Source: Saprospiraceae bacterium
GTDB taxonomy: Bacteria; Bacteroidota; Bacteroidia; Chitinophagales; Saprospiraceae
Length of the DNA stretch: 53,255 bases
Reading direction: 5' to 3'
Assembly (NCBI GenBank): GCA_026986005.1
Contig: JALSPK010000045.1
Span: 1 to 53,255, forward strand
The position numbers were made by a program, and so were the translations under genes. Shown piece after piece: positions 10,378 to 49,558 of the stretch. The notes beneath the pieces are model-generated. The model saw nothing but the letters and a program-made list of their open reading frames with translations, was not told the DNA's origin and did not search any database. The stretch's first letter is position 1. Each line of letters starts with the position of its first letter.

Positions 10378-10536
10378 GTGTCTGTCCACAAAGTTATTAA
10401 AATTTAAAATAATCTTTTTGCGATATTTTTACTTTATTCAAATTACTGATGCTAAGGCATCACTAATTCTCAGAAAGACAAAAATTTCATTAAAAATCTT
10501 TATTTTTCCAAAATCAAGCACTTTATAGATAGACAC
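10378..10536. repeat. MITE-like element, family 1, full-length copy (A)
   Basis: The 159-bp element has imperfect 17-bp terminal inverted repeats: gtgtctgtccacaaagt at the left and the complement of gtgtctatctataaagt at the right. It contains no gene. The interior matches the element at 23267-23399 for about 110 bases at high identity, and its ends match those at 46239-46315 and 52199-52253. Flanks tatcaa (left) and tatcta (right) could be a decayed target duplication. The right end touches the stop codon of the next gene. Its transposase source is not in this window. Confidence 0.75.
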
Positions 10537-12329
10537 TATCTATCTTTGTTCATCAACATTTCATCTATTGCTTTACATGCTCTGAATCCATCTGCAATAG
10601 CACTAATAGCATCGGCGGTTCTATTGGCAGAGTCACCTCCCGCAAACAATCTTGGTAGTGTAGTTTGTTGTTTATCATCTACTACAAAACGACCTCTTTC
10701 TACTTTGACCTTATCTGTATATTCATCTAGGAAAGTATAATCACCTTGTTGTCCTATTGCTGCCATTACAGCAGTTACAGGCATAATAGTATTGCTTCCT
10801 TCAATAGCAACCGGTCTTGGTCTTCCACCACCTTCACTCTGCACCATTTCTGCTTTTAAGTACTCGACTGCATTAACTTTACCGTTTTCATCAGTATGTA
10901 TTTTGATTGGAATAGCTTGTGGTTCATATTTCACTCCTTCCTCTTCAGCACCTTCTATTTCCTCCCAGTCAGCGGGCATATCTTTAACACGTCTTCTGTA
11001 GAGCATTGTCACATCTGCACCGAACCTTCTACTAACTCTTGCGGCATCAATGGCAACATTTCCTCCTCCAATCACGGCTACTTTATCACCTATTTCTACA
11101 CTTTCTCCTGAATTAATCATGTGTAGGTAATTTACTGCTTGCATTGAACCTGTTGCTTCCTCACCTTCTATTCCAAGTGTCCAGGCTTTTGGAAATCCAA
11201 CTCCTATAAATACTGCATCATTATTTTCGTATATCTCTTTAAAGCTAATGTCTTTTCCTACTTTTGTATTGAAATTAATTTTTACACCTATACTTTGAAT
11301 ATATCCAATTTGTTTTTCCAAACTTTCTATAGGTAAACGATATTTAGGAATTCCGTACATTGTCATACCACCTGCCTTAGCATTGGCTTCCCAAATAGTA
11401 ACATCGTATCCTCTCAATGCAAGATAATATCCTGCGGTTAAACCTGCCGGACCAGCCCCGATGATACCAACTTTTTTCCCATTTGGCTCTCTGATTTCAG
11501 GATTTACAATATCTCTTGTCACATCAGATGCATCAGCTGCTTCAGTAGCATATCTTTTCAACCATCTAATTGCTACCGGTTCTCCTCTTGTGGCAATCGC
11601 ACAAACATCCTCGCATCTACGAGTACAAACTTTACCACACATTTCCGGTAGAGGATTATTGTCATATATAATTCTTAAAGCATCCTCATCATCTCCTTTC
11701 GCAATAGCATTGATGTATTCCGGAATATGCATATGGTCAGGACAAACTTCAGTACAAATACCACAACTTATACATCTCTGAGCTTCCTCTCTTGCCTGCT
11801 CTTCACTATATCCAAGTACAACTTCTGCGAAACTTTTAACCCTTTCCATTCCTTCAAGCTCTGGCATTGGAATACGTGTAAAATGGTTCAATGACCATTC
11901 AACTGAACTTGAATATGAAACACGATCTTTCCCTTCCGGATTATCAATGCCGGGAGTTACTAATTGTGTGTTAGGATCATTTGTGACATTGACAAAGTCT
12001 TTTGTTAAACTTAGACTACCGGTTGGGCATACATCTACACACAATGCACAGTAACAACATCTACCATAATCGACTCTTGGTCTTAAACCTGAATCACCTT
12101 TTTCACCTTTAACCTGATCTACAATCGTCATATCAATAGCATCATTCATACAAATAGTAGAGCAATTACCACATCCAATACAATCTTCAATTTCATTAAA
12201 GTGAAAACCTCTATATCTATCAGAAGCCTCTACAGGCACCTCCGGATACCGAATAGTATGAGGAGGCTTAGCAAATTGCTTAAGCGATGTAAGTGGTCTT
12301 AATGTACCTTTTAAATTAAAAAATCCCAT
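10536..12329 (-). CDS. NuoI-type ferredoxin fused to a GltD/NfnL-like NAD(P)H flavoprotein (Mbx-like complex electron-input subunit)
   Basis: A 597-residue fusion. Residues 1-~150 resemble NuoI/MbxN, with two [4Fe-4S] motifs (C50, C53, C56, C60 and C91, C94, C97, C101-P). Residues ~165-597 are a glutamate-synthase-small-subunit-like flavoprotein. They hold CISCGICTEVCP (186-197), a second cysteine set (231, 235, 239, 243), the FAD fold GIIGAGPAGLTAG (~288-300), the NAD(P) fold VIGGGNVAIDAARV followed by YRRR (suggesting NADPH), and a C-terminal AGGDSANR flavin motif. No gltB partner is present; the gene closes a complex I-like operon that lacks nuoE/F/G. It probably passes electrons from NAD(P)H through four Fe-S clusters to the NuoB-type subunit. 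Direction and nucleotide preference are inferred. Confidence 0.88.
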   Translation of the reverse strand: MGFFNLKGTLRPLTSLKQFAKPPHTIRYPEVPVEASDRYRGFHFNEIEDCIGCGNCSTICMNDAIDMTIVDQVKGEKGDSGLRPRVDYGRCCYCALCVDVCPTGSLSLTKDFVNVTNDPNTQLVTPGIDNPEGKDRVSYSSSVEWSLNHFTRIPMPELEGMERVKSFAEVVLGYSEEQAREEAQRCISCGICTEVCPDHMHIPEYINAIAKGDDEDALRIIYDNNPLPEMCGKVCTRRCEDVCAIATRGEPVAIRWLKRYATEAADASDVTRDIVNPEIREPNGKKVGIIGAGPAGLTAGYYLALRGYDVTIWEANAKAGGMTMYGIPKYRLPIESLEKQIGYIQSIGVKINFNTKVGKDISFKEIYENNDAVFIGVGFPKAWTLGIEGEEATGSMQAVNYLHMINSGESVEIGDKVAVIGGGNVAIDAARVSRRFGADVTMLYRRRVKDMPADWEEIEGAEEEGVKYEPQAIPIKIHTDENGKVNAVEYLKAEMVQSEGGGRPRPVAIEGSNTIMPVTAVMAAIGQQGDYTFLDEYTDKVKVERGRFVVDDKQQTTLPRLFAGGDSANRTADAISAIADGFRACKAIDEMLMNKDR

Positions 12330-12413: not shown

Positions 12414-12675
12414 TTCGTCCCCATCGCACCAATCGTCCCGAATCGTCCCCATCGCACCATCGCACCTTCGCACCATCGTCCCCATCGCACCATCGTCCCT
12501 ATCGTACCCATCGTCCCAATCGCAACACCATCGTACCATCGTACCATCGCACCATCGTACCATCGCACCATCGCACCATCGCACCATCGTACCCATCGTC
12601 CCCATCGCAACACCATCGCACCTTCGCACCATCGCACCATCGCACCATCGTACCATCGTACCATCGCACCCATCG
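12414..12675. repeat. Tandem 8-bp repeat array 1 (between nuoD-like and nuoI-like genes)
   Basis: About 31 copies of a degenerate octamer, plus strand consensus TCGYACCA with variants TCGTCCCA and TCGCACCT, and some 9-mers. The array starts 6 bases past the nuoD stop on the minus strand and fills most of the 351-base gap to the next gene, in an operon whose other junctions are overlaps or gaps under 15 bases. Because 8 is not a multiple of 3, the minus strand stays open in several frames and would encode Met-Val-Arg-Trp-Tyr-Asp-Gly-like octapeptides; I treat these as non-coding. Confidence 0.9.
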
Positions 12676-12680
12676 CAACT

Positions 12681-13787
12681 CTATCTCTCTATCTCCGGCG
12701 GACAAGTTCCCAAACTATTCATTATTGCTGAAACATCTGCTATATTAGCTCCTACCAAAACATCTTCCAGTAGTGAAACGGCATGAACGTAAGCCGCACC
12801 TCTAAAGTGAGCTCTTCTTGGTTTATTTCCACCATCACTTACCAAATACATCCCAACTTCTCCTCTGACTGATTCTGCTCTTGCAAATGCATCTCCGGCA
12901 GGAATTGTCCATTTTTGAGGATTTGGCAATTTTACATTAAAATCACCCTTTGGAATTTTTCCTATTACTTGTCTAATAATACTTATTGATTCTCTTAGTT
13001 CTGCCCTTCTTACCAAAGCTCTTGCCCAAATATCACTACCTGTTTGAGTAGGGATGTCAAACTTTAATTTATCATATACTTCATACGAATCATCTATTCT
13101 GATATCGCTTTTTATTCCAGCTGCTCTAAGAGGTTGTCCAACGACTCCGTGTTCTATTATTTGCTCAGGGTTTACTATTCCAACCCCTTGAGTTCTTTTT
13201 TGAAAAATGCTATTTTCAAATAATAGATTATCATAATCCGGCAATTTATTTTCGAAATAGTCCATTACTTTAAGTACTCTATCTTCAAATCCTTCCGGAA
13301 AATCTTTTCTCACTCCACCGGGCCAAACATACATATGATAGATACGCGCTCCTGTCAGTTCTTCAAATAAGTCCAATATATAATTCCTGTCTCCGACTGA
13401 CCATTGTCCCATCGTGTACAATCCTAAAGAATGCCCTTGTCCGGCATGCCACAGCAATAATGATGACATTCGTGCCAACTCTAATATTAAAACTCGTATC
13501 CATTTTGCTCTTTCCGGAATTTCTATTCCAGCTATCATTTCAACTGCTCTTGCATAAGTGTTTTCTACAGGATCTGGTTCCGGAACGCAAAATCTACACA
13601 TCAATGTAAAGCTTTGAACCCAATTTCTTTTTTCCACAAGTTTTTCAAAAGCTCTATGTAAGTAGCCAACCTCAGTTGTAGCTTTGACAATAGTATCGCC
13701 TTCTACCTTGAGACGAATCATCATATTGCCGGTAATACCGGGGTGTTGAGGACCAAAATATAAAGTTGTTGCTCTTTCTCTTTTCAT
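12681..13787 (-). CDS. nuoD: NuoD/MbxL-like large catalytic subunit (NiFe-hydrogenase large-subunit family)
   Basis: A 368-residue protein, shorter than typical NuoD, beginning near the GPQHP motif (residues 12-16). Complex I has GPQHPxxHG; here the second His is replaced (GPQHPGITG). The quinone-site Tyr region instead carries C64-R-F-C67, matching the N-terminal CxxC of NiFe hydrogenases. The C-terminus ends CPPEIER: C362 lies where the first Cys of the hydrogenase CxxC would be, and E365 replaces the second. So it is neither a standard quinone reductase subunit nor an intact NiFe site. As I recall the family, this resembles archaeal Mbx/Mbs L subunits. Its start shares one base with the nuoC stop (TAATG). 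Confidence 0.88.
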   Translation of the reverse strand: MKRERATTLYFGPQHPGITGNMMIRLKVEGDTIVKATTEVGYLHRAFEKLVEKRNWVQSFTLMCRFCVPEPDPVENTYARAVEMIAGIEIPERAKWIRVLILELARMSSLLLWHAGQGHSLGLYTMGQWSVGDRNYILDLFEELTGARIYHMYVWPGGVRKDFPEGFEDRVLKVMDYFENKLPDYDNLLFENSIFQKRTQGVGIVNPEQIIEHGVVGQPLRAAGIKSDIRIDDSYEVYDKLKFDIPTQTGSDIWARALVRRAELRESISIIRQVIGKIPKGDFNVKLPNPQKWTIPAGDAFARAESVRGEVGMYLVSDGGNKPRRAHFRGAAYVHAVSLLEDVLVGANIADVSAIMNSLGTCPPEIER

Positions 13788-14356
13788 TATCTTGAATGTT
13801 TTTTAGCAAAATCAGGAATCACTTCCCCTGAACGTTTAGCAATAGTCTCACGTACATCCTGAGCATCTTCTCTGCCTATTCTTTCAGAAAATACATCTTT
13901 AGCATATGCTTCTGTGTCAAAGTCTCTTCGCATTGGAGGTGGACCTTCCCAATCTTCAAGTATAAACTCTTCAGGTGCTACTAATCCAGTAAATTCTATC
14001 CCATACATTTCCTTAAACTCTCTTTCGTAAGTATTTAATTGAGGCCATATCATATCAAGATTTTCCATTACAGGATTATCACGATCAAGCTTTGTTCTTA
14101 CAAAAACTCTTATTTTCTCTTTAGGAGTCCAAAGCATAAACAAAACCTCAAATTTCCCTTCTTCTAACCAATCTACAACACTTGCGTGCATCAAATGCCT
14201 AAAATTCATATTCTCTTTCAAATACCTTAATATTGAAGGTATTTGTTCCTTTTTTATTTGAACATCGACTCTTTTTCTTTCGACATCAATCGAACTCCTA
14301 TCCAATTCAAAATTTACAGAAATCCTATCTTTGATTTTCTCTAAAAATGTTTCCAT
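13787..14356 (-). CDS. nuoC: NuoC/MbxK-like subunit (30 kDa complex I family)
   Basis: A 189-residue soluble subunit of the peripheral arm. The family signature is clear: YEREFKEMYGIEFTG, followed by LEDWEGPPPMRRDF in place of the usual LRR tail. It supports the NuoB/NuoD core and has no cofactor. It is translationally coupled to nuoD (TAATG overlap), but array 2 separates it from the upstream nuoB, leaving 282 bases to the nuoB stop. Complex I NuoC and hydrogenase/Mbx K subunits cannot be told apart by eye; the operon argues for the Mbx type. Confidence 0.88.
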   Translation of the reverse strand: METFLEKIKDRISVNFELDRSSIDVERKRVDVQIKKEQIPSILRYLKENMNFRHLMHASVVDWLEEGKFEVLFMLWTPKEKIRVFVRTKLDRDNPVMENLDMIWPQLNTYEREFKEMYGIEFTGLVAPEEFILEDWEGPPPMRRDFDTEAYAKDVFSERIGREDAQDVRETIAKRSGEVIPDFAKKHSR

Positions 14357-14446: not shown

Positions 14447-14632
14447 TAGTCCCCCTCGCACCCCTCGCACCATCGTCCCATTCGCACCCATCGTCCCATC
14501 GCACCATCGCACCATCGTCCCATCGCACCTTCGTACCATCGTACCATCGCACCATCGTCCCCTCGCACCTTCGTACCATCGTACCATCGCACCATCGTCC
14601 CCTCGCACCATCGTCCCCTCGCACCCATCGCA
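14447..14632. repeat. Tandem 8-bp repeat array 2 (between nuoB-like and nuoC-like genes)
   Basis: About 22 copies of the same octamer as array 1, in the same orientation, beginning 8 bases past the nuoB stop. Both arrays start on the minus strand with ttgcgatgggtgcga. Array 2 contains a higher-order unit of five octamers (40 bp) present twice in tandem. Its distal end is flanked by ccctagtccccct, resembling the cccttagtctccttt that flanks array 1. Multiple open frames cross it, but none has a credible start. Confidence 0.9.
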
Positions 14633-14638
14633 ATCCTT

Positions 14639-15184
14639 CTACCAATTATAATCAGGAAAATCCCAATTCTTTATAATCTTCTTTTGATTCCCTCTGTAAT
14701 AATCCAAATTGTCTTTGTATTTAGTTGCTCCTCTTGCTTCACCTGCTCTTATTTGTTCCTGCAATTTAGCAAATCCTTCCAAAACTGCTTCCGGTCTTGG
14801 CATACATCCGCTAATGTATACATCTACAGGTAAGTACAAATCTAATTGTTTGATTGTGTTGTAAGAGTCCCAATACATTCCTCCATTTACAGCACAAGAG
14901 CCAAAGCCAATTACGTATTTTGGATCTTGCATTTGTTCATAGACTCTGATCACTCTTTTTAGCGTTTTTACCGTTAAATATCCTGTAATCATCAGTACAT
15001 CAGCTTGTCTTGGAGTTGCTGCTCCTCTTACACCAAGTCTTTCTGCATCGTATCGTGAAGTCATGGTTGCAGGAACTTCTATAGCTCCACATCCTGTTCC
15101 GTAAGCGAGTATCCAAAGTGAATGACTTCTTGCGATATCTGTAACTATTCTCGTCAATTTATCTTGATAAATACCGTAATCCAT
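14639..15184 (-). CDS. nuoB: NuoB/MbxJ-like small [4Fe-4S] subunit
   Basis: A 181-residue subunit that normally holds the terminal iron-sulfur cluster next to the catalytic site. The family frame is clear: YGTGCGAIEVPA, SRYDAERLGV, GFGSCAVNGG and ISGCMPRPEAVLEG. Complex I has tandem cysteines (CC) at the first site; here it is Cys-Gly, and the protein has only three cysteines in total. The fourth ligand is therefore absent, non-cysteine, or supplied by another subunit. This is a real departure from NuoB. Its stop is followed within 8 bases by repeat array 2; its start lies 12 bases after nuoH. Confidence 0.9.
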   Translation of the reverse strand: MDYGIYQDKLTRIVTDIARSHSLWILAYGTGCGAIEVPATMTSRYDAERLGVRGAATPRQADVLMITGYLTVKTLKRVIRVYEQMQDPKYVIGFGSCAVNGGMYWDSYNTIKQLDLYLPVDVYISGCMPRPEAVLEGFAKLQEQIRAGEARGATKYKDNLDYYRGNQKKIIKNWDFPDYNW

Positions 15185-15196
15185 TATAGCTGTTTT

Positions 15197-16108
15197 TTAA
15201 AAATATACTGAATAAATAATTGCTAAAAATCCAAATAGCAATGGCCAACCCCAAAAATACGTTACCGCTTGTTCTGTTCTGTATCGAGGATTTACTACTC
15301 CATACATAACGGGGATCATATAGAGTAAAAATGTCTTAATGACCAATTCTATTAAATTGCTTGCACCACCAAAAAATACATCTACCAAGAGAGTAAGTTT
15401 TACAAATGCAAAAACAGAGCCGGCAGACATCATAGTGAACAAAAACTTACCTCCATTTTCTGAAGCGGGCCCCGAAGCTAATTCAGTAGGTGCACCTACT
15501 ATATTGAATGGCGCATATCTAAACATACCCAATGATGCCAATATAGCTGCGACAAAGGCAAATGGATTTTGAAATATCAACCATTGTCCTACTTCATTTT
15601 GTACATTCATCAAATCTACAACTGAAGTTGTATTGTATTTAATCATCAAAGCAACTAATGCCATTACCCAAGGTATTTCAAAACCCACCATTTGACTTAA
15701 CCCTCTCGTTACTCCTATTGCGCTATTGGGATTACCTGTTTGACCTGCTCCAAGAGCCATGCCAAGAGGTCCGAAAGTCATAATGTATATCAAAAAGATT
15801 AAATCTCCTTTGAAATTCAAGTTTGTAAACCAAATATTGTCACGCAATACAGGTATGATCATCAATGCGACTACTGCTGATACCATCAAAAATGCTGGTC
15901 CCAATAGGTGCATTGCCCCATGATGAACGGCTGTTGTTTTTGAAAACAATTTGAATGCATCAATGAAATTTTGATATATCGGAGGTCCGTATCTGTTTTG
16001 AACTCTTGCTATCACTTTTCGTCGTATCCCACCGTATGTCATTCCTACAACAAAGGCAAGAAGGAATGTGGCTATTGCACCTAATATGCTCATTAATATA
16101 CCTTCCAT
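15197..16108 (-). CDS. nuoH: NuoH/MbxM-like membrane subunit
   Basis: A 303-residue protein with about eight transmembrane helices that joins the peripheral arm to the ion-pumping membrane arm. The cytoplasmic loop has the family motif RRKVIARVQNRYGPP near residue 30, followed by QNFIDAFKLFSK; GPASENGGKFLF is a further conserved loop. Acidic residues within helices, for example in GAPTELASGPASENGG, form the proton entry path in homologues. It is spaced 11 bases from the upstream antiporter gene and 12 from nuoB, so it is part of one tight transcript. Confidence 0.93.
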   Translation of the reverse strand: MEGILMSILGAIATFLLAFVVGMTYGGIRRKVIARVQNRYGPPIYQNFIDAFKLFSKTTAVHHGAMHLLGPAFLMVSAVVALMIIPVLRDNIWFTNLNFKGDLIFLIYIMTFGPLGMALGAGQTGNPNSAIGVTRGLSQMVGFEIPWVMALVALMIKYNTTSVVDLMNVQNEVGQWLIFQNPFAFVAAILASLGMFRYAPFNIVGAPTELASGPASENGGKFLFTMMSAGSVFAFVKLTLLVDVFFGGASNLIELVIKTFLLYMIPVMYGVVNPRYRTEQAVTYFWGWPLLFGFLAIIYSVYF

Positions 16109-16119
16109 TTATACTTTAT

Positions 16120-17970
16120 TTAACCCAATAAATTTTTACCAAACATTAATAAAATAATCAAAAATATCATTGCGTAAATAGCATACGTTTGACCATTTCC
16201 ATTATAAATTCTTCTTGTGAATTCGAATAAATCCTCGACACCTTTTGCAAAACTAAGCATATATTTGTCAATTTGCCTTTTCATAACCGGTTCAACTGCT
16301 CTTAAAAACGGTTGGAAGAATCCACGACTAAATGTTAAGTTTTCATGCTCCTTGATTATTTCACCTGAAGTACTGATATCTTTTGTAGTTACGTATCTGG
16401 TTCGTGATCTATTTCTGAAGAATAAAAATATTGTGACAATGACAAATACAAGCATTATTCCGTACATAATAGGAGCTAAGGCTATTTGGTTTCCCCATTT
16501 GTTGAATAGGATAGATTCTTTCCACAGATTTCCGTAAGTATCCGGTAAGCCAAATGACATCATTGCTGCATTGATTGGCTTCAATATCAACTGAGGGTAA
16601 GTACCTAAAACTATAGAACTTATTGAAAGTATCACCATAGGTACAATCATGATCGCAGGAGCTTCCTTTACGTGAGCCCATTCTTTTTCTTCTTGACCTA
16701 AGAAAAAACCAAACAATATCTTATAACAATACAAAAATGCAGCAGTACTCGAAAAGAAAACAAGTATAACCAACATGAAATGGTCGCTTAATATTAATGA
16801 TTCATAAAGCATCCATTTTCCAACAAATCCTCCTAATGGTGGAATTCCTGCTAATGCAATTATTGAAATCAATGCAGCGAGAAAAGTCCAAGGCATTTTT
16901 CTTATCAATCCGGTTACTTCGGTTAAATCTGTTGTACCGGTTTGCTTTTCTACTGCTCCGACTACCATAAATAAAGCAGATTTGAATACTCCATGCATAA
17001 ATGCGAGAAATAATCCCGCAATTATAGACATTGGAGTCCCTATAGCTACTCCTATTATTATATACCCTAACTGACCAATTGATGAATATGCTAATAATCT
17101 TTTTGCATCATCTTGTTTTATTGCCCAAAGCGTAGAGATCGCTGCCGTGATAGCTGCTAACCATGCTACAATATCTCGTATTAAAGCTCCTTCAGGTACT
17201 TTGGATAATAGGCTCAAAAACACAATGACCATTCCGTAAATACCCATTTTTGACAATGCTCCGGAAAAAATAGCAGTATATGACATTGGAGCATTGCTGT
17301 AAGCATCAGGCGCCCAGATATGAAGAGGCATCAATGCAGCTTTTACCCCAAATCCAATCAATAATAGTGCGGGAATAAGTAATTGCATACCCTGAGTCAT
17401 TCCGGTGTATTCCGAAATCAAGTCGGTGATTAAAAACGAACCTGTTATTGAATGAATCAAGACAATTGCCATTAGCATTGCATAAGCACCAATTGCACTC
17501 ATGACAAAGTATTTTATTCCTATTTTTTGAACATTTTTCCCATTGTATATTACTATTAGATATGAAGCCCATGTCATTATTTCCCAAAAGATGAAAAAAG
17601 AAATAAAATCTTTGCTCATTAATATCCCAAACATTGCACCTATACTTAGGATATAATTCAAATAATAATATCCTTTTCTCTTCTTCCCATTCATTTGACC
17701 TACTGTATAGAATCCGGCAAGAACAGCTAAGCCCATAACAATCAAAGAAAAATAATAACTTAATGGTGTCATTCCAAATGTTAATTGAGCTTGTGAAAAG
17801 GTTATTATACTTTCAGTGTTCATATCTACGCCTGTAAAAAATAATACAGCGGGGACTACCAATACAATTAGAAATAAAATATCTTGTACCAAAGCAGATA
17901 TCTTACCTGAAAAAGCAGTGATTATTGCTCCAAGAAAAAATAAGATTAGTATTAAAATTATTATATTCAT
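16120..17970 (-). CDS. Antiporter-like proton/sodium-pumping subunit (NuoL/NuoM/MrpD family, second copy)
   Basis: A 616-residue membrane protein with about 14 helices in the antiporter core, including WAPDAYSNAPMSYTAIFSGALSK (discontinuous-helix region with the key Lys) and KRLLAYSSIGQLGY. A C-terminal extension of about 110 residues has a charged amphipathic stretch and a last helix, resembling the lateral helix of NuoL and of one Mbx H subunit. Paired with the MrpD-like gene upstream, it gives two antiporter subunits, as in Mbx/Mbs. The gap to the upstream gene is 2 bases. Confidence 0.9.
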   Translation of the reverse strand: MNIIILILILFFLGAIITAFSGKISALVQDILFLIVLVVPAVLFFTGVDMNTESIITFSQAQLTFGMTPLSYYFSLIVMGLAVLAGFYTVGQMNGKKRKGYYYLNYILSIGAMFGILMSKDFISFFIFWEIMTWASYLIVIYNGKNVQKIGIKYFVMSAIGAYAMLMAIVLIHSITGSFLITDLISEYTGMTQGMQLLIPALLLIGFGVKAALMPLHIWAPDAYSNAPMSYTAIFSGALSKMGIYGMVIVFLSLLSKVPEGALIRDIVAWLAAITAAISTLWAIKQDDAKRLLAYSSIGQLGYIIIGVAIGTPMSIIAGLFLAFMHGVFKSALFMVVGAVEKQTGTTDLTEVTGLIRKMPWTFLAALISIIALAGIPPLGGFVGKWMLYESLILSDHFMLVILVFFSSTAAFLYCYKILFGFFLGQEEKEWAHVKEAPAIMIVPMVILSISSIVLGTYPQLILKPINAAMMSFGLPDTYGNLWKESILFNKWGNQIALAPIMYGIMLVFVIVTIFLFFRNRSRTRYVTTKDISTSGEIIKEHENLTFSRGFFQPFLRAVEPVMKRQIDKYMLSFAKGVEDLFEFTRRIYNGNGQTYAIYAMIFLIILLMFGKNLLG

Positions 17971-17972
17971 AA

Positions 17973-19457
17973 TTATTTATTTATCGTCAATACTTCTTTA
18001 ATATAATTGCCCTTATCCATCAAATCTGTAGCAGCTCTATCCAAATAACCTGAAATTAAATCGGGGTAAAATCCAATAACCAATACTATTATGCCTAAAC
18101 AAATCATAGCAATCAATGCATTGATAGAAGGCTTTTGAGTTTCAGTTTTTTCTTTTTTATCAAAGAAATAGATTCTATTGACTACTCTAAGGTAATATAC
18201 TGCTTCAAGAATACTTATTATTAAAATAACCGCTATTAATATGACCATTTTGCTATCAGCTGCAGCTGTAAGAACTGCAAGTTTACTCCAAAATCCTGAG
18301 AAGGGTGGGAGACCGATGATTGCAAAAGACCCTATTGTAAATAAAACAGAAGTAATAGGTAAATATTTGCCCATTCCGTTGACGTGCTTAATGTATTTGT
18401 TCTTTTTGTTGAATACAAGATAACTTCCTGAGAAAAACAACAAAGATTTTATGATGGCATGGTTGAACATTAAAAATAATGCTGCATACACACCTTCTTT
18501 TGTTCCGATACCAAAGGCTATCATTACCAATCCCATTTGCCCAATACTTGAATATGCCAGCATCCTTTTTAGCCTATCTTGTCTCAATGCTGTAGTTTCA
18601 GCTACTATAAATGTAATAAGTCCTATTATTATGAATAAATCAAATGCTCCGCCGAAATCGTACATCGTATATACTAGTCTTACACTTGCATAAATTGCTG
18701 CTTTGACTACGATTCCTGCAAACGCAGCACCAATAGGTCCCGGAGCTTGTGTGTAAACATCAGGAGCCCATCCATTGAGAGGGAAAATCTCTGCTTCAAC
18801 TCCAATGGCAAGAATAAAAAATACTAAAGATAATACCTTTAATTTATTATCCATCAAAGGCATCTTTTCTGCAATATCTGCAATGTTTAATGTACCCAGT
18901 TGAGAGTATATTATCATTATTGCAATCAATAAAAATGTAGATGCAATCGCTCCCATAAATAAAAATTTGAAAGCAGCTTCTGCACTATCTCTTCTTGTGT
19001 AAAATGAAGTAAGTCCATATCCTGAAATACTCACTATTTCTATAAATACAAACATATTGAAGATATCCCCCGTCAATACTATACCAACAGAACCTGTGAC
19101 AAGTAGCATCAATAAAATAAAATACTTCATCGAAGGCTCAAAATCTACATTTCTCTTGAATTTGTAGCTATAAAGCCATACCATAAATCCAAGGAAAGTC
19201 ATCAGCATAGTTAAAAATCCTGTAAAAGGACTAAATACAAGATTAATACCAATCGGAGGTTTCCATCCTGCTATTACTTCTACAATAGTTCCGTGTTCAC
19301 TTACATAGCCCATCAAAGATATTGATAGGGCGAACATGAATGCGAGGACTAATCCGGGAATAATTCTAACCGAATTCTTCCATATCATCCCTGTTAGCGG
19401 TATGATAAATGCCGCCAATAATGGAATCGCTACAAATAATACCGGTGATCCTACCAT
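17973..19457 (-). CDS. mrpD: MrpD/MnhD-like antiporter subunit
   Basis: A 494-residue, roughly 14-helix antiporter subunit. Family motifs include IEIVSISGYGLTSFY, WAPDVYTQAPGPIGAAFAGIVVK (broken-helix region) and KRMLAYSSIGQMG, and its length matches MrpD. In Mrp antiporters it works with MrpC to exchange Na+ and H+. Here it is in one operon with catalytic redox subunits, so the antiporter module is probably the membrane arm of a larger redox-driven pump. Its start overlaps the mrpC 3' end by 7 bases. Confidence 0.9.
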   Translation of the reverse strand: MVGSPVLFVAIPLLAAFIIPLTGMIWKNSVRIIPGLVLAFMFALSISLMGYVSEHGTIVEVIAGWKPPIGINLVFSPFTGFLTMLMTFLGFMVWLYSYKFKRNVDFEPSMKYFILLMLLVTGSVGIVLTGDIFNMFVFIEIVSISGYGLTSFYTRRDSAEAAFKFLFMGAIASTFLLIAIMIIYSQLGTLNIADIAEKMPLMDNKLKVLSLVFFILAIGVEAEIFPLNGWAPDVYTQAPGPIGAAFAGIVVKAAIYASVRLVYTMYDFGGAFDLFIIIGLITFIVAETTALRQDRLKRMLAYSSIGQMGLVMIAFGIGTKEGVYAALFLMFNHAIIKSLLFFSGSYLVFNKKNKYIKHVNGMGKYLPITSVLFTIGSFAIIGLPPFSGFWSKLAVLTAAADSKMVILIAVILIISILEAVYYLRVVNRIYFFDKKEKTETQKPSINALIAMICLGIIVLVIGFYPDLISGYLDRAATDLMDKGNYIKEVLTINK

Positions 19458-19822
19458 TTTAATTTCTTTATTTCGTCAATTCTTAATGTGTTATGATGTC
19501 TGTATAGCCTAATCACAAGAGATATTGCTACTGCGGTAACACCAAATCCAATTACAATAGCCGTCAAAACTAAAGCCTGAGGAATAGGGTCAACCATAAC
19601 ACTCATTTTTTCTTCATTTCCGGCTGAGAAAATCGGCGCCGTACCATCTTTTAAATAACCAATGGCAATCATCAATAAATGTACTCCAGAATCTAATATT
19701 GAAAGTCCTAAGACTATCTTAATTAGAGATTTTTTTGTCAATGCACCATAAAGTCCTATCAGCATCAAAAGTACTGCCGAACCGTATATAGCAACATTTA
19801 GTATGTCTAAGTATTTTTCCAT
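19451..19822 (-). CDS. mrpC: MrpC/MnhC-like subunit (NuoK family)
   Basis: A 123-residue protein with three transmembrane helices of the NuoK/MrpC family. Conserved features are GLYGALTKKSLIKIVLGLSI and the loop VDPIPQALVLTAIVIG, which is diagnostic of MrpC (DPLPQALVLTAIVI in known members). It carries membrane-embedded polar residues used in ion translocation. It lies 3 bases after the MrpB-like gene and overlaps mrpD. Confidence 0.93.
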   Translation of the reverse strand: MEKYLDILNVAIYGSAVLLMLIGLYGALTKKSLIKIVLGLSILDSGVHLLMIAIGYLKDGTAPIFSAGNEEKMSVMVDPIPQALVLTAIVIGFGVTAVAISLVIRLYRHHNTLRIDEIKKLKW

Positions 19823-19825
19823 TCT

Positions 19826-20521
19826 TTAGTCTTTTTCGTGTAATACTGTGTAAATAATTCCCGTCAATTCCGCCGCTACTTTAAATCCAACAGCTATATA
19901 TATAATTCCAATAACTCCACCACTAAATAAGTCATTCATATTACCTACCGGTAGTACGTTTTCGAGGAAACTTCCTTTAGAAAAATATCCAACTAAACCA
20001 ATACTTATAAATAATATACCGGCAAGCGATTCAAAATAAACCAACCTATTGTGACTTACCGAATAATTTCTGTATGTGAGAAGCATTAGCAAAAAACCTG
20101 TTGCTATTATTGTGCCTCCTTGAAATCCTCCTCCTGGTGAAAGATGACCGTGTATAAATACATATGCTCCCAATAAAACTATTGAAGGAAATAATAACTT
20201 TGCTCCTGACATTACTATTCTACTTGCCGGAAATAATACAGAACGTTCTCCGACGTGATGACGCTTTTTGTATAATATTCCTCCCAAAGCAGTCGAGGCT
20301 AAGAATAAAACAGTAACTTCTCCAAGAGTATCAAATCCTCTAAAATTTACAACTATTGATGTGACAACATTAGAAACCTTTAAAATATCTTTACTGTTTG
20401 ATAAGTACAAATCTTTGACTCCATTGGAGAAGTGTTGTACTCCAAAACCAATACCAAAGAAAATATCCATTAGATAAAATCCAAGTATCCCAAGTGATAT
20501 TAAAATAATTGCTATCTTCAT
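19826..20521 (-). CDS. mrpB: MrpB-like subunit with N-terminal MbhE-like segment
   Basis: A 231-residue membrane protein in two parts. The N-terminal ~85 residues carry RGFDTLGEVTVLFLAS, a signature of MbhE or the C-terminal tail of MrpA. The remaining ~145 residues are MrpB/MbhF, with the motif HGHLSPGGGFQGG. In archaeal Mbh/Mbx complexes these are separate small genes, so this may be a fusion of the E and F positions. It overlaps the DUF4040 gene by an ATGA junction. Confidence 0.88.
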   Translation of the reverse strand: MKIAIILISLGILGFYLMDIFFGIGFGVQHFSNGVKDLYLSNSKDILKVSNVVTSIVVNFRGFDTLGEVTVLFLASTALGGILYKKRHHVGERSVLFPASRIVMSGAKLLFPSIVLLGAYVFIHGHLSPGGGFQGGTIIATGFLLMLLTYRNYSVSHNRLVYFESLAGILFISIGLVGYFSKGSFLENVLPVGNMNDLFSGGVIGIIYIAVGFKVAAELTGIIYTVLHEKD

Positions 20522-20802
20522 TTTGTGGTAGTTTTTACTTTTTTCTTCTTATCGTGTTCATCTTCATACCTAACAGTATTTCTGATGGCGATAATAAAAA
20601 TAATTGTAGTCAATGCTACTCCAATAGCAGCTTCTGTCAATGCGACATCAGGCGCTTGGAGGATTACAAAAACTATTGACAAAAACAAACTCAAAATGCC
20701 TGATGCTATTACAGCATACAGCAAGTCTTTTTGCCATATTGCATAGATTGCTGAAGCAACCATGAGCAATAATAAAACCAATGTTAAAATTACGTATATC
20801 AT
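20518..20802 (-). CDS. DUF4040/MbhD-like membrane subunit
   Basis: A 94-residue protein with three helices, corresponding to an internal part of MrpA/MbhD. The motif LQAPDVALTEAAIG contains the conserved acidic residues seen in Mrp and Mbh homologues. The C-terminus is short and very basic (Lys-rich). A stand-alone D subunit, with no MrpA antiporter core attached, is typical of Mbh/Mbx-type modules rather than of ordinary Mrp antiporters. ATGA overlaps join it to both neighbours. Confidence 0.87.
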   Translation of the reverse strand: MIYVILTLVLLLLMVASAIYAIWQKDLLYAVIASGILSLFLSIVFVILQAPDVALTEAAIGVALTTIIFIIAIRNTVRYEDEHDKKKKVKTTTK

Positions 20803-21146
20803 TTTTCTGAATTATCTTTTTCTTCAATTTCACTATAAGCATCAATATCCTCATCCTTGAAGTACATATATCCTTTTCTTTTATGCATCGCTCTGGCCAA
20901 TGCATGAGAGCTGATAGGATTGGAATATGCAATGAAAAGTATGATAATCAATACCTTGAAAATCCATCCGGGAGCTAATAAGCCTACCCCGAGTATAGTA
21001 GCCATAGCGCCAAGAGTCGATGCTTTGGTGCCTGCTTGTAATCTGTTAAAAACATCAGGCATTCGATATATCCCCAATGCTCCTAGAAATAGGAAAATAC
21101 TTCCTATCACTATTAATAATCCGCCAATAATTTCAAGTATGCTCAT
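20799..21146 (-). CDS. mrpG: MrpG/MnhG-like subunit
   Basis: A 115-residue protein with three helices. The motif LGIYRMPDVFNRLQAGTKAS followed by LGAMATILGVG is diagnostic of the MrpG family. The tail is acidic and soluble. It overlaps mrpF and the DUF4040 gene by four-base ATGA junctions, so translation is coupled. Confidence 0.93.
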   Translation of the reverse strand: MSILEIIGGLLIVIGSIFLFLGALGIYRMPDVFNRLQAGTKASTLGAMATILGVGLLAPGWIFKVLIIILFIAYSNPISSHALARAMHKRKGYMYFKDEDIDAYSEIEEKDNSEK

Positions 21147-21400
21147 AATGCTTTTTCTAAATATCTTGCAATAACAATGACTCCAATAAATCCCAGTACT
21201 CCATAAACTAATGCCACATCTAAATATATATATCTATCAAATAAGTAGGCTAGCAAAACAATACTTGATACACCAATTGTTGTCATAGTATCCAATGCCA
21301 AAGTTCTGTCACCGGCTGAAGGGCCTTTGTAAAATCTAACAGCAGCTAATATCAAAGCCAATGTCATTACGGTTAAGGAAAAATATATTATATAATCCAT
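21143..21400 (-). CDS. mrpF: MrpF/MnhF-like subunit
   Basis: An 85-residue protein with three helices. The motif RFYKGPSAGDRTLALDT matches the MrpF signature (GPs..DRvlAlD). It lies 1 base after mrpE and overlaps mrpG. It is a structural component of the antiporter-like membrane arm. Confidence 0.92.
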   Translation of the reverse strand: MDYIIYFSLTVMTLALILAAVRFYKGPSAGDRTLALDTMTTIGVSSIVLLAYLFDRYIYLDVALVYGVLGFIGVIVIARYLEKAL

Positions 21401-21401
21401 A

Positions 21402-21929
21402 TTAAAATATTTTTAATAGTATTTCTTCAAATTGTTCTGCTATCTCCTTGTATGATTCCTCCGGATTAGTCGTTAATGTATCTATCCAATGTACATAAAA
21501 TGTATCATCAACAACATCAATGGTCAATGTGCCCGGTGTTAAAGTTATGCTATTGGCTAAAACCATTTTGGAAAAATTAGTTTTAAGCTTTGTTTTGAAT
21601 TTTACAATACCGGGGTTTATTGGTAGAGAAGGAGATAATACTCTCCTCGCTACATCAAAATTAGATTTTATTAATGCGATTAAAAAGACAATGATAAACT
21701 TGGCTATATTGTACAATCTAACAGGGTGAAGCAAAGATAAATCACAGCATGTAAATAATCTGATTCCGAGAAATGAAATCAACGCTGTTAATAATACACC
21801 AACTATTATCTCTTGCATATCAAAGGTATTGGTAAATCCAATCCAAACCATTATCAAAAATATCCAGTTCATAAAGAACCTTGATAATTTTGTTCCGAAA
21901 CTTAATTTTTTTAAATAATCACTCTTCAT
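21402..21929 (-). CDS. mrpE: MrpE/MnhE-like subunit
   Basis: A 175-residue protein with an N-terminal pair of hydrophobic helices and a cytoplasmic C-terminal domain. The family motif is the ANSITLTPGTLTIDV segment followed by FYVHWID. It is the first of thirteen complex genes and lies 29 bases after the dihydroorotate-dehydrogenase-like gene. The segment IGFTNTFDMQEIIVGVLLTALIS is like the N-terminal region of known MrpE proteins. Confidence 0.92.
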   Translation of the reverse strand: MKSDYLKKLSFGTKLSRFFMNWIFLIMVWIGFTNTFDMQEIIVGVLLTALISFLGIRLFTCCDLSLLHPVRLYNIAKFIIVFLIALIKSNFDVARRVLSPSLPINPGIVKFKTKLKTNFSKMVLANSITLTPGTLTIDVVDDTFYVHWIDTLTTNPEESYKEIAEQFEEILLKIF

Positions 21930-21958: not shown

Positions 21959-22942
21959 CTATTCAAAATCATATTTTTTTCCTTCAAAATAATTCATGAA
22001 TTGTACTCTTTCAACTACAGCAGGATTTTCAATATTCTTTTGACTCATTTTAGCTCTGAAATCATCCAATGAATCAAAATCATGTCTTGTCATCCATTCT
22101 TTCAATTCAGTAAGCATATCTTCGATATACTCAATTCCATGCTTGTACAATGCTGATACAACTTGAGTAGCATCAGCCCCGGCTAATATCTCTTTGATAA
22201 TTGACTGACCATCATGTACTCCGGTAGAAGCGATAAGACTACTATCTACTTTGCCGGCCAATATTGATATCCATCTCAATGAAATAGCGATATCAGTAGT
22301 ACGACTGAGAACATTAGTGGAGGTAATTTTGAAATTCTCAATATCAAAATCAGGATGAAAAAATCTGTTGAATAATACAATACCATTAACTTTTGAAGAG
22401 ACCTCCTTTACAAATCTTGCAAGGTCTGCAAAATAATAACTCAATTTAACTGAAATCGGTAATTTTGTATTACTTCTAACCTTCTCTATGATATCCATAT
22501 AAATCGCTTGAATTTCATAACATTTTTTATGGAAGTCAGAAGGCATAATAAACATGTTTAACTCAATAGCATCTGCACCGGCTTTTTCAAGTTTCTTGGC
22601 AAAGTAAGTCCATTCATGAGAGCTAGTACAGTTTATACTTGCGATAATAGGAATATTTACTTCTGCTTTTGCGTCCTTTATATATTGAAGGTATTTATTA
22701 AGATTGTCATTCTTGATCTTGACATCATAATAATCCATATAGCCATCACTCTCTACACCAGCTTTTATTAAGTGAGCATATTCCAACGTAATCTCTTCCT
22801 CAAACAATGATTTCAATACAATAGCACCTGCTCCGGCTTTCTCTATTTTTTTCAGATTAGCTATATTCATCGTTAGAGTTGAACTTCCCACAACGATAGG
22901 TGACTTCAATTTCAAACCAAGATAGTTTACCGATAAATTCAT
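21959..22942 (-). CDS. Dihydroorotate dehydrogenase-like flavoprotein
   Basis: A 327-residue TIM-barrel FMN protein. The N-terminus (LGLKLKSPIVVGSSTLT), KAGADAIELNMF, LPISVKLSYYF and STGVHDGQSIIKEILAGADA outline the DHOD fold and its phosphate-binding loop. It lacks Fe-S motifs. The usual NxxCPN active-site motif is replaced by INCTSSHEW, so the substrate may not be dihydroorotate. Related DHOD-like proteins often lie next to ferredoxin-linked oxidoreductases in other bacteria (known context). The 29-base gap to mrpE puts it in the complex operon. It could feed electrons into the complex or act separately; the sequence cannot decide. Confidence 0.85.
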   Translation of the reverse strand: MNLSVNYLGLKLKSPIVVGSSTLTMNIANLKKIEKAGAGAIVLKSLFEEEITLEYAHLIKAGVESDGYMDYYDVKIKNDNLNKYLQYIKDAKAEVNIPIIASINCTSSHEWTYFAKKLEKAGADAIELNMFIMPSDFHKKCYEIQAIYMDIIEKVRSNTKLPISVKLSYYFADLARFVKEVSSKVNGIVLFNRFFHPDFDIENFKITSTNVLSRTTDIAISLRWISILAGKVDSSLIASTGVHDGQSIIKEILAGADATQVVSALYKHGIEYIEDMLTELKEWMTRHDFDSLDDFRAKMSQKNIENPAVVERVQFMNYFEGKKYDFE

Positions 22943-41330: not shown

Positions 41331-42767
41331 TCAATGAGGTCCCAAAAAATTGGTTTCAGGTTCATCAACCAGTTTACCATCCGCCAATACTTGAAATTTG
41401 ATTGGCGTTTTATATCCCTTCATTGCAGATACGGGAATCGTCACTATAATACTTCCTGTAGCTCTCCCGAATTTAGGAATCAAATCAATTTTAGCAGGAA
41501 TCGGTTTTAGTACAGCTTCTTTAATATTGATTACCTTAAATTCGACATTGTGTATATCTCCGGAAGTTTTGTTAATAAGCTTATAATTATAGAGATTGAC
41601 AATGTGTGTAGTGTCCCCCTCTGCATACTGATAAGTCATACCGGGAGTACGTAGGATTATCCCTTCAACTTTAACCCTATTCAATGCAACAATTGTAAGC
41701 AACCCAAGTATTAAAACCAATACTCCTGAATAAGCTTTTGCTCTGGTAGAAAATTTAAAAGGCTCTCTGTTTTTAATAGAATACTCTGATGCGTATCTGA
41801 TAAGTCCTTTGGGCTTATGTATTTTTTCCATGACAGCATCACAAGCATCCATACAAGCAGTACAGTTCACACACTCCAGCTGCGTCCCATTCCGAATATC
41901 TATCCCGGTAGGGCATACGGCTACACATTGGTTGCAGTCGATACAATCTCCAAAATCATCTTCTTTAGCTTCTCCTGATTTTATTTTTTGATTTCTTTCT
42001 TTTTGGCTTGCTCTTTTTTCTCCTCTGTAAAAATCATAATGCACTACAATAGAATCATCGACTAACAAGACACTTTGCATTCTACCGTAAGGACAAACAT
42101 TGGTACATACTTGTTCTCTAAAAAATGCAAAAATAAAGTAGAAAAGCATTGAGATAATAAAAATTACTGTAAACATTGTAGTATTAGCTAATGGATTAAC
42201 CCAAGTTTCGCCTATATGTTCGATTCCTACGATGAAAGCTAGCCCAAAACTTACAAACAAAAATGCAAGAGCAATAAAGATCAAATGCTTTAAAACTTTT
42301 TTGAAGATTTTTGAATTGTCCCATGGTCCTTCATTCAGCCTTTTTTGAGAACCGGCATCCCCTTCTATCATATATTCTATTCGTCGATAGACTAATTCCA
42401 TGAAGATTGTTTGGGGGCATAGCCAACCGCAAAAAAATCGACCAAATACAAATGTAAATAAAACTATAAAAATCATTAGTGCTACCATGCCTATGGCAAA
42501 TAGATGAAAATCCTGCGGAGTAAATACCATTCCAAAAATGATGAATTTTCGCTCAAATATGTTTAATAAAAATAAAGGCTCGTTTTCATATTTCAAAAAT
42601 GGCAATACCAAAAGTACTAAAATTAATAGGAAAGCAACAATTTTTCTTCGATTATACCACGTTCCCTTTGGTTTTTTAGGATAAATCCATCTTCTCTTTC
42701 CGGAGTCATCAACGGTAGATAATCTATCTCTAAAGTTTACATCTTTTTCTTTGTTTATTTCAGACAT
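41331..42767 (-). CDS. ccoG: cbb3 oxidase accessory protein CcoG (polyferredoxin)
   Basis: A 478-residue membrane ferredoxin that takes part in copper handling for cbb3 oxidase. It has several helices, FFCGWLCPQTIFMELVYRRIE, FREQVCTNVCPYGRMQSV, and paired [4Fe-4S] motifs CIDCNQCVAVCP and CVNCTACMDACD. The C-terminal ~120 residues form an Ig-like periplasmic domain (CcoG C-terminal fold). The length is typical. It is separated from ccoP and from ccoH by terminator-like hairpins, so its expression may be set apart from the structural genes. Confidence 0.94.
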   Translation of the reverse strand: MSEINKEKDVNFRDRLSTVDDSGKRRWIYPKKPKGTWYNRRKIVAFLLILVLLVLPFLKYENEPLFLLNIFERKFIIFGMVFTPQDFHLFAIGMVALMIFIVLFTFVFGRFFCGWLCPQTIFMELVYRRIEYMIEGDAGSQKRLNEGPWDNSKIFKKVLKHLIFIALAFLFVSFGLAFIVGIEHIGETWVNPLANTTMFTVIFIISMLFYFIFAFFREQVCTNVCPYGRMQSVLLVDDSIVVHYDFYRGEKRASQKERNQKIKSGEAKEDDFGDCIDCNQCVAVCPTGIDIRNGTQLECVNCTACMDACDAVMEKIHKPKGLIRYASEYSIKNREPFKFSTRAKAYSGVLVLILGLLTIVALNRVKVEGIILRTPGMTYQYAEGDTTHIVNLYNYKLINKTSGDIHNVEFKVINIKEAVLKPIPAKIDLIPKFGRATGSIIVTIPVSAMKGYKTPIKFQVLADGKLVDEPETNFLGPH

Positions 42768-42812
42768 TTCTCAAGTTAATTTTATTAACAATTTAAACAT
42801 ATTAAAAATAGT

Positions 42813-42853
42813 AAAAAACAAAGACTACACCCAATAAAGGCTGTAGTCTTTGT
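42813..42853 (-). terminator. Terminator between ccoP and ccoG
   Basis: An 11-bp stem (acaaagactac/gtagtctttgt) with a 14-base loop and a run of six T on the minus strand, 22 bases past the ccoP stop. Confidence 0.8.
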
Positions 42854-42875
42854 GTTATTTAGAAAGTCTTCTAAA

Positions 42876-43478
42876 TTATTTAGGATCGCCCGGATATACT
42901 TTTGGGTTTGCAGGATTAGTTCCTTTCAACTTTACGAGTATATAACTTGCGACTTCTTGAATTTGTTTAGCAGATATTTTACCGTCCCAAGTAAGCATAC
43001 CTTTCTCAGGAACTCCTTGTTTGATAGTTTTGAAAACACTCTTGATATCTCCACCGTGAATCCATTTATCATCTGTCAAGTTCGGTCCGATGATACCACC
43101 CCCATCAGGCCTATGACAAGAAGCGCAGTTTGTATCAAATACTTTTTTCCCTTCTGCTAATGCATTAGCATCATTCATCAATTTAGCTGTGTTTTCATTG
43201 ATATCTCCACCGGTCTTTTTTAAGTAGGCATCAACATCAGCTTTAGCTACAGCCATTTCTTCTGTATATTCTTTAGCAGAGCTCCAATCACCGATAATAT
43301 GATACTTGGCAAAATAGATTACCGCTATAAATATTGTAATATAAAATAGCCACAACCACCAAGGCGGTAGGACATTATCCAACTCTCTGATGCCGTCATA
43401 TTCATGCTCCAGCATAACGTCAGCTTCTTGTTCCAGAGACGTTGTTTTTGTTAAAATTTGCATTAATTTTTTCCACAT
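42876..43478 (-). CDS. ccoP: cbb3-type oxidase subunit III (CcoP), single-haem form
   Basis: A 200-residue membrane-anchored cytochrome c that brings electrons to the oxidase. The N-terminal region has the CcoP motif YDGIRELDNVLPPWWLWLFY, which includes its transmembrane helix. It is followed by one cytochrome c domain with CASCH (haem ligands) and a Met ligand, probably in KGMLTWDG. Proteobacterial CcoP has two haems and about 300 residues; this short form is usual in Bacteroidota. It follows ccoQ by 34 bases. Confidence 0.92.
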   Translation of the reverse strand: MWKKLMQILTKTTSLEQEADVMLEHEYDGIRELDNVLPPWWLWLFYITIFIAVIYFAKYHIIGDWSSAKEYTEEMAVAKADVDAYLKKTGGDINENTAKLMNDANALAEGKKVFDTNCASCHRPDGGGIIGPNLTDDKWIHGGDIKSVFKTIKQGVPEKGMLTWDGKISAKQIQEVASYILVKLKGTNPANPKVYPGDPK

Positions 43479-43512
43479 AGGATAAATATTTTAATGATTA
43501 AACAAATGTTTA

Positions 43513-43707
43513 TTAATTTTCATCTTCCTCAATATCATTTCCCTCCAAAGGTAAATTGGCATCATAGGCGTCCAATGATTTTGACCTCATCGCTGTAACA
43601 ATAAATATTGTAATTAGCAGCACGAAGAAAAAAATCAATGGTCCTATTGCCATCCAATTGATTCCGGCTTCTCCGGAATTAATCAAGTATTTTATTCTAC
43701 TTATCAT
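43513..43707 (-). CDS. ccoQ: CcoQ-like small subunit
   Basis: A 64-residue protein with one transmembrane helix (GPLIFFFVLLITIFIVTAM) and an acidic C-terminus (GNDIEEDEN). Position and profile match CcoQ, which stabilises the cbb3 core. It overlaps the ccoNO stop by one base (TAATG). Confidence 0.8.
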   Translation of the reverse strand: MISRIKYLINSGEAGINWMAIGPLIFFFVLLITIFIVTAMRSKSLDAYDANLPLEGNDIEEDEN

Positions 43708-49004: not shown

Positions 49005-49558
49005 AACTTAATATTAGATAATTTTATATTAGGGTACAATTTGTGTAATTTTCCCACCAGTAGTTTTCTAGCTCTTGATAGTCTTGATCTGGAGCTACTT
49101 TCACTTAATCCCAGCATTTCGCCTATCTCATTATGACTGTATTCTTCAAAAATATAAAGATTAAATATTTGTTTGTACTTGAAAGGTAAAGTGTTTATTA
49201 GATCTATCAATTCCTCTAGTTCAAGTTTGTCTATAACATTTGATTCATATCCGTTTGAATAAGATACATCCTTGTCATATGTCTCTTTTACCATATACAT
49301 TTTACGATATCTCCTTATTGCAGTACGCGCTACTATTTGCTTCATCCAATTTTCTAAGCCTCCTTTAGCCGGGTCATAACCATTGATCGAGTTGAAAATT
49401 TCTATAAATGAGTCCTGCAATATATCCTTAGCATCATGATAATCTTTTGCATATCTTCTACAGACGGTAAACAAAAGTGCAGAGAATCTTAAAACCAATT
49501 CTTTTTGGCTGTTATCATCTTTTGACTTGCATCCCAATATGATTTGTTCAGTCTGCAC
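49001..49558 (-). CDS. ECF-type RNA polymerase sigma factor
   Basis: A 185-residue sigma-70 family factor. Region 2 (~15-95) includes AKDYHDAKDILQDSFIEIFNSI and ENWMKQIVARTAIRRYRK. Region 4 (~125-175) includes INTLPFKYKQIFNLYIFEEYSHNEIGEMLGLSESSSRSRLSRARK, with its helix-turn-helix. It starts 6 bases after the lipoprotein gene and overlaps the anti-sigma-like gene, so the three form an operon. The promoter for the unit is not obvious. Confidence 0.94.
   Translation of the reverse strand: MQTEQIILGCKSKDDNSQKELVLRFSALLFTVCRRYAKDYHDAKDILQDSFIEIFNSINGYDPAKGGLENWMKQIVARTAIRRYRKMYMVKETYDKDVSYSNGYESNVIDKLELEELIDLINTLPFKYKQIFNLYIFEEYSHNEIGEMLGLSESSSRSRLSRARKLLVGKLHKLYPNIKLSNIKF

Follow-up and report, generated by a model that had tools for sequence, protein, structure and literature searches.

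A Predicted MBS/MBX-Type Complex with a Fused NAD(P)H Arm in a Saprospiraceae Bacterium

Results

A Thirteen-Gene MBS-Type Operon

The window, meaning the whole stretch of 53,255 nucleotides that was analyzed, contains a complete 13-gene operon (Table 1) with the gene order A B C D E G H H′ M J K L N, which is the MBS order in the subunit table of PMC8415708. The best PDB matches of L, J, E and H′ are the MBS chains of 6u8y, and the E subunit has the MBS-type fusion of MbhE and MnhB parts. The NuoD-like L subunit, identified as such in a preliminary description of this DNA, is encoded by an intact open reading frame and is part of a full 13-gene complex, not a solitary oddity.

Table 1. Operon genes and key residues of the L subunit in the window
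Feature	Position	Strand	Domain or PDB match
MbsA-type (MrpE), first of 13 genes	21402..21929	-	PF01899
MbsB-type (MrpF)	21143..21400	-	PF04066
MbsC-type (MrpG)	20799..21146	-	PF03334
MbsD-type (MbhD)	20518..20802	-	PF13244
MbsE-type, MbhE part fused to MnhB part	19826..20521	-	6u8y_E, residues 4-229, E 3e-47
MbsG-type (MrpC/NuoK-like)	19451..19822	-	PF00420
MbsH-type (MrpD-like) antiporter subunit	17973..19457	-	PF00361
MbsH′-type antiporter-like	16120..17970	-	6u8y_X, residues 60-611, E 2.2e-93
MbsM-type membrane anchor (NuoH family)	15197..16108	-	PF00146
MbsJ-type (NuoB)	14639..15184	-	6u8y_J, E 1.1e-63
MbsK-type (NuoC/30-kDa family)	13787..14356	-	PF00329
MbsL/MbxL-type large subunit (NuoD/49-kDa family), 368 aa	12681..13787	-	6u8y_L, E 1.2e-108
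MbsN-type NuoI domain + NfnL/GltD-type domain, fused	10536..12329	-	6u8y_N, E 5e-23; 5jca_L, E 2.3e-95
L residue C64	13596-13598	-	
L residue C67	13587-13589	-	
L residue E70	13578-13580	-	
L residue C362	12702-12704	-	
L residue E365	12693-12695	-	

Relatives were found at 74 loci which, by their record titles, are mostly from Bacteroidota (Saprospiraceae, Bacteroidales, Flavobacteriales and others), with several Chlorobiota, some Calditrichota, one WOR-3 and one Sulfurovum; isolate labels, as we read them, point to vents and sediments as source habitats. The search peptide contained the C64 motif, and C64 may therefore be over-represented among these loci. At a query coverage of at least 40%, L and K are matched around 72 loci each, J around 68, N around 63 and MrpE around 43, a fall that reflects the ends of contigs. 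The remaining open reading frames of the window gave one match in total, to the frame at 49001-49558, and no further sulfur gene was found as a conserved neighbor around the 74 loci.

A dihydroorotate dehydrogenase-like gene (21959-22942) lies directly upstream of the operon on the same strand and is matched at 29 of the 74 loci. Two minisatellite-like arrays fill the L-N and K-J gaps (12449-12677 and 14456-14632), with an 8-base unit that reads CGATGGTG on the minus strand. This unit has 21 matches in the organism's own genome (at most two mismatches), all on one strand and only in these gaps and near the start of contig C20. Arrays in relatives differ, being of the TTGCGA/GCGA type in both gaps of L004 and in the L-N gap of L005. 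Further along the window (41331-45833) are cbb3-type oxidase genes (fused COX1-FixO, FixP-like and FixG-like), which equip the organism to respire oxygen as well.

Matches above 75% identity occur in 6 of 60 related genomes, own genome included, and matches of any kind, complex I included, in 23 of them. Across Bacteroidota, the MBS/MBX-type complex occurs rarely, with a match at E ≤ 1e-85 in 2 of 395 genomes, again counting the own genome. In the phyla of L062 and L066, 12 of 40 and 7 of 28 genomes have a match. In WOR-3 (the phylum of L067), some match at E ≤ 1e-60 is present in 55 of 147 genomes, and type assignment, which covers the fetched loci of these 55, gave 28 MBX-type loci (27 at E ≤ 2e-108 plus the fragment L120) and two complex I-like ones (L119 and L121). 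One scan of viral contigs found no relative.

The L Subunit Retains Two of the Four NiFe Ligand Positions

In the PDB search, the closest solved relative of L is P. furiosus MbsL, with complex I subunits following (E 4.8e-66 and weaker) and MbhL (6cfw_L) matching at E 2.5e-41. The structure predicted for L (mean pLDDT 82.6; 48 in the last block) aligns in VIA with complex I 49-kDa subunits at a Z of about 44; the 50 matches listed are all complex I entries, with 6u8y and 6cfw not among them. The structural model that the preliminary description had called for thus supports a NuoD-type fold, and model and alignment confirm the fold only. We consider L almost certainly a member of the MBS/MBX family.

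L contains only three cysteines, C64, C67 and C362, which had been read as three of the four hydrogenase cysteines, with C64-x-x-C67 as the first CxxC. A gap-free phmmer alignment (query residues 37-101 against the PDB) sets L 39-101 against MbhL 40-102 and pairs C67 with C68, E70 with C71, C64 with E65, and R65 with R66. The NiFe ligands of MbhL are given in PMC11228991 as C68, C71, C374 and C377. The full-length alignment, in which L 8-362 spans MbhL 9-374, pairs C362 with C374. For two four-cysteine group-4 hydrogenases (L149 and L154), BLASTP and three MAFFT modes all yield an identical register. In place of the CxxC...CxxC pattern of hydrogenases, L has C67xxE70...C362xxE365 (C67-V-P-E70 and C362-P-P-E365), keeping the first cysteine of each pair and carrying Glu at the second, as the preliminary description had rightly noted for the C-terminal pair. 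The cysteines lost are those that bridge Ni and Fe in [NiFe] enzymes. In the same alignment, the MbsL equivalents are the cysteines C85 and C385 and the carboxylates E88 and D388; L and MbsL thus retain an identical pair, two of the four ligands. These alignments place C64 three residues upstream of C67, at a position where hydrogenases have Glu or Gly, which makes it an additional cysteine that matches none of the NiFe ligands. The phmmer, BLASTP and MAFFT register thereby overturns C64, C67 and C362 as three NiFe ligands. Placement of the cysteines outside the active site, which the preliminary description had named as grounds for its refutation, comes close to applying to C64 only, C67 and C362 being in register.

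Over 118 rows, Cys is present at 64 in 99/117 (Pro 10, Leu 5, Ile 2, Ser 1), at 67 in 113 of the 117 with a residue and at 362 in 102 of 111; R65 is present in 117/117, E/D70 in 117/117 and E/D365 in 110/111, with Cys at 365 in no row. By these counts, the conservation of C67 and C362 is beyond chance. Among rows L004-L077 (73 aligned), counting those with a residue, the cysteines are near-invariant (C64 71/72, C67 72/72, C362 69/69). Four rows have lost both C67 and C362 and five have lost C362 alone (to Tyr), and these relatives could have another function. L114-L117, from the phylum of L067, have N67 and V/T/I362 and keep C64, E70 and E365. On a tree of 77 rows, made by a quick method with open deep forks and long-branch warnings and in which gain and loss are indistinguishable, C64 changes six times, C67 once, C362 twice and the J site described below three times.

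The quinone-site residues of complex I are also missing, as the preliminary description had claimed: Nqo4 H38 aligns with T19 and Y87 with V68. The position of MbhL Glu21 is G20 in L, from the alignment offset and the hydrogenase rows. Of the 116 rows that have a residue at position 19, 103 carry Thr and 2 carry His, and Val occupies position 68 in 117/117. His38, Tyr87 and Glu21 are reported to be absent from MBS (PMC7684303). The organism's own genome also encodes a canonical complex I NuoD/NuoB pair, whose separate NuoD (L002) retains both quinone residues. The earlier views, that L stands midway between hydrogenase and complex I and that conventional quinone reduction by it is improbable, are both supported by its MBS/MBX type, which PMC7684303 already describes as such an intermediate.

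The J Subunit and the Surroundings of the Proximal Cluster

The only cysteines of J, C32, C97 and C127, correspond in the alignment to the three residues that ligate the proximal 4Fe-4S cluster in MbsJ, and the position of MbsJ Cys25 is Gly29. By this motif, J would bind a proximal cluster with three cysteine ligands. MbsJ Cys25 is reported as dispensable for MBS catalysis (PMC7684303). In L, C64 is next to R65, the Arg of the cluster's second sphere, and so adjoins a residue that touches the surroundings of the cluster.

In an early set of 70-odd rows, L-C64 and J-Cys25 seemed mutually exclusive. Over 103 rows with both sites, 78 have C64 without Cys25, 15 have Cys25 without C64, 8 have both and 2 have neither. 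Four independent pairs on well-supported branches differ in C64; in J, one to two of them differ oppositely and none in parallel (sign test, p 0.5 to 1). A strict swap is refuted, and the association is not significant. L091 (G065:C59), divergent at 47% to the L067 protein, is the second MBX-type L of its genome, and here neither C64 nor J Cys25 is present.

The N Subunit Carries a Fused NAD(P)H Arm

N comprises a NuoI domain (about residues 9-116), for which 6u8y_N ranks ahead of all other NuoI-type PDB chains, and an NfnL/GltD-type FAD-NAD(P)H domain with further 4Fe-4S motifs (about 152-595). Among solved structures, this second domain is closest to the large subunit of NfnI (5JCA). The NCBIfam model PRK13984, "putative oxidoreductase" (611 positions), matches residues 8-595 with 627.7 bits, below its cut-off of 946. 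Of the 18 cysteines of N, 17 are conserved in 61/61 rows (the window protein plus 60 relatives no shorter than 560 aa), as are the GxGxxG FAD loop and, past the second glycine-rich loop, a YRRR motif. We take the YRRR motif to indicate a preference for NADPH. No NfnS-like protein was found among the operon genes searched. Since N is fused and not the stand-alone NuoI-type subunit of the P. furiosus MBS, the complex is filed as an MBS/MBX variant. In titles and abstract beginnings, a scope that leaves most subscription papers outside, we found no MBS/MBX described with a fused NfnL arm or an extra cysteine.

NiFe Assembly in the Family Genomes

Of 26 family genomes, 14 have HypD. The search for PF00374 covered 20 of the 26; eight of those 20 have HypD (G000, G001, G002, G004, G062, G067, G084 and G632), and all eight encode a PF00374 protein over the cut-off, which accounts for HypD there. 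Neither was found in 10 of the 20, including G030 (locus L009, matched by contig number and position) and G248 (locus L128), which are rated 100% complete and are of the C64/C67/C362 type; the complex therefore needs no NiFe cofactor. The sub-threshold PF00374 match in G060 and G061 is the L subunit itself. Two genomes fit poorly, with no HypD match alongside a hydrogenase (G003) or a PF00374-like protein (G131). In the organism's own genome, HypD is accounted for by a true PF00374 hydrogenase on contig C47.

Discussion

MBS has been known from archaea, and PMC7684303 portrays this relative of complex I as an intermediate stage between it and hydrogenase. Judged by its genes, the present complex is built like the archaeal MBS, with an in-built NAD(P)H-oxidizing arm, in a marine-type bacterium. 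It shares with the P. furiosus MBS (6U8Y) the 13 genes in identical order, the fused E, the H′ subunit, the absence of His38, Tyr87 and Glu21, the two retained cysteines of L and the three J ligands; it differs in the flavoprotein fused to N (6u8y_N has 208 aa), in the extra C64 (Leu in MbsL) and in Gly at the Cys25 position of J. The P. furiosus MBH (6CFW), a group-4 hydrogenase, has related L and J subunits and the same first cysteine in each pair, whereas it has four NiFe cysteines and Glu21 where L has two cysteines and two carboxylates. Complex I (Nqo4/NDUFS2, Nqo6/NDUFS7) shares the fold and the Arg at R65, and certain mitochondrial 49-kDa chains end E-I-x-R as well; unlike complex I, L is without His38 and Tyr87, and J is without the tandem Cys pair. 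The NfnI large subunit and PRK13984 proteins have a similar FAD/NAD(P)H domain with Fe-S motifs, although the operon has no NfnS-like gene as Nfn transhydrogenase would require. The Thermotoga maritima MBX presumably includes a GltD-like gene. By description only, it is alike as a bacterial 13-subunit MBS homologue, and its mbxA is induced by S0 (PMC9431562).

We propose, at roughly even odds, that the complex is an ion-pumping NADPH:sulfane-sulfur (S-S) reductase acting at the three-cysteine proximal cluster. The features of the MBS chamber and cluster are present together with an NfnL-type domain bearing YRRR, presumed to favor NADPH, and this combination makes NADPH-driven S-S reduction our favored reading; electron donor, acceptor, coupling and ion are all inferred. 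NADPH would reduce FAD in the fused N subunit, and electrons would pass through the NfnL-type and then the NuoI-type 4Fe-4S clusters of N to the proximal cluster in J. In the chamber of L, J and M, an S-S bond (of polysulfide or another sulfane) would be reduced at the open iron of this cluster, and the energy released would drive the Mrp/antiporter-like arm. C67 and C362 would be relics without a NiFe site. S-S reduction at a three-ligand proximal cluster is proposed for MBS in PMC7684303, where MbsJ C25 and MbsL C85/C385 are said not to take part in MBS catalysis. Several observations count against our reading. P. furiosus MbsN has no flavoprotein part, so that the donor differs here and the acceptor may as well. 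In sulfur reduction, NADPH yields far less energy than ferredoxin and may not support much pumping. With cbb3 oxidase genes and a canonical complex I pair, the organism need not live by sulfur reduction, and no other sulfur gene is a conserved neighbor around the 74 loci.

The main rival, an Rnf-like, ion-translocating ferredoxin:NADP+ oxidoreductase in which ferredoxin would feed the fused N and NADP+ would be the acceptor, is less probable though still a real contender. The kinship of the NfnL domain with the NfnI large subunit suits it, and PMC6349859 restates an older interpretation in which P. furiosus Mbx is a ferredoxin:NADP+ oxidoreductase; the sulfane reductase activity of MBS was demonstrated afterwards (PMC7684303). 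Placing both substrates on the outer arm would leave the conserved chamber and three-ligand cluster jobless. No RnfC_N match better than E 5e-6 occurs in 8 of the 26 family genomes (G000-G003, G030, G061, G066 and G089), as replacement of Rnf would allow, but such a match is present at E ≤ 1e-14 in 17 of the 26 and at E ≤ 0.001 in 25, which speaks against simple replacement, and overall the presence of Rnf did not discriminate between the readings. An NAD(P)H:quinone pump, in effect complex I with a modified quinone site, would fit the predicted fold and the cbb3 oxidase genes, yet it is very unlikely given the near-uniform Thr and Val at the H38 and Y87 positions, the closer kinship of L with MbsL than with NuoD, and the intact quinone residues of the genome's other NuoD.

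Marginally less credible still is the preliminary reading, in which three cysteines left over from the NiFe site would continue to bind a metal or cluster. C64, C67 and C362 are indeed the sole cysteines and near-invariant in L004-L077; against this, C64 is out of register, same-type relatives are without HypD, and MBS in which the C67/C362 equivalents were mutated kept catalysis (PMC7684303). A working [NiFe] hydrogenase or NiFe-type metal site is contradicted already and deserves next to no weight: HypD and a true hydrogenase are in the genome, but the hydrogenase on C47 accounts for this HypD, Glu replaces the second cysteine of each pair, Gly occupies the Glu21 position, and 100%-complete relatives have neither HypD nor a PF00374 match.

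Within the favored reading of a sulfane-sulfur reductase, it is conceivable, although improbable, that in the bacterial branch the thiol beside the proximal cluster moved from J (Cys25 to Gly) to L (C64 gained or kept), with C64 ligating or gating the catalytic iron of the NADPH-driven, ion-pumping enzyme. If true, C64 would represent a natural redesign of the MBS active site. The bacterial substitutions mirror the MBS mutagenesis, with J Cys25 lost, C67 and C362 lost in some branches and the three cluster ligands kept. This pattern agrees with catalysis by the proximal cluster itself, a view for which the family offers many test cases, and with an NAD(P)H arm fused to the complex the electron donor can be tested directly.
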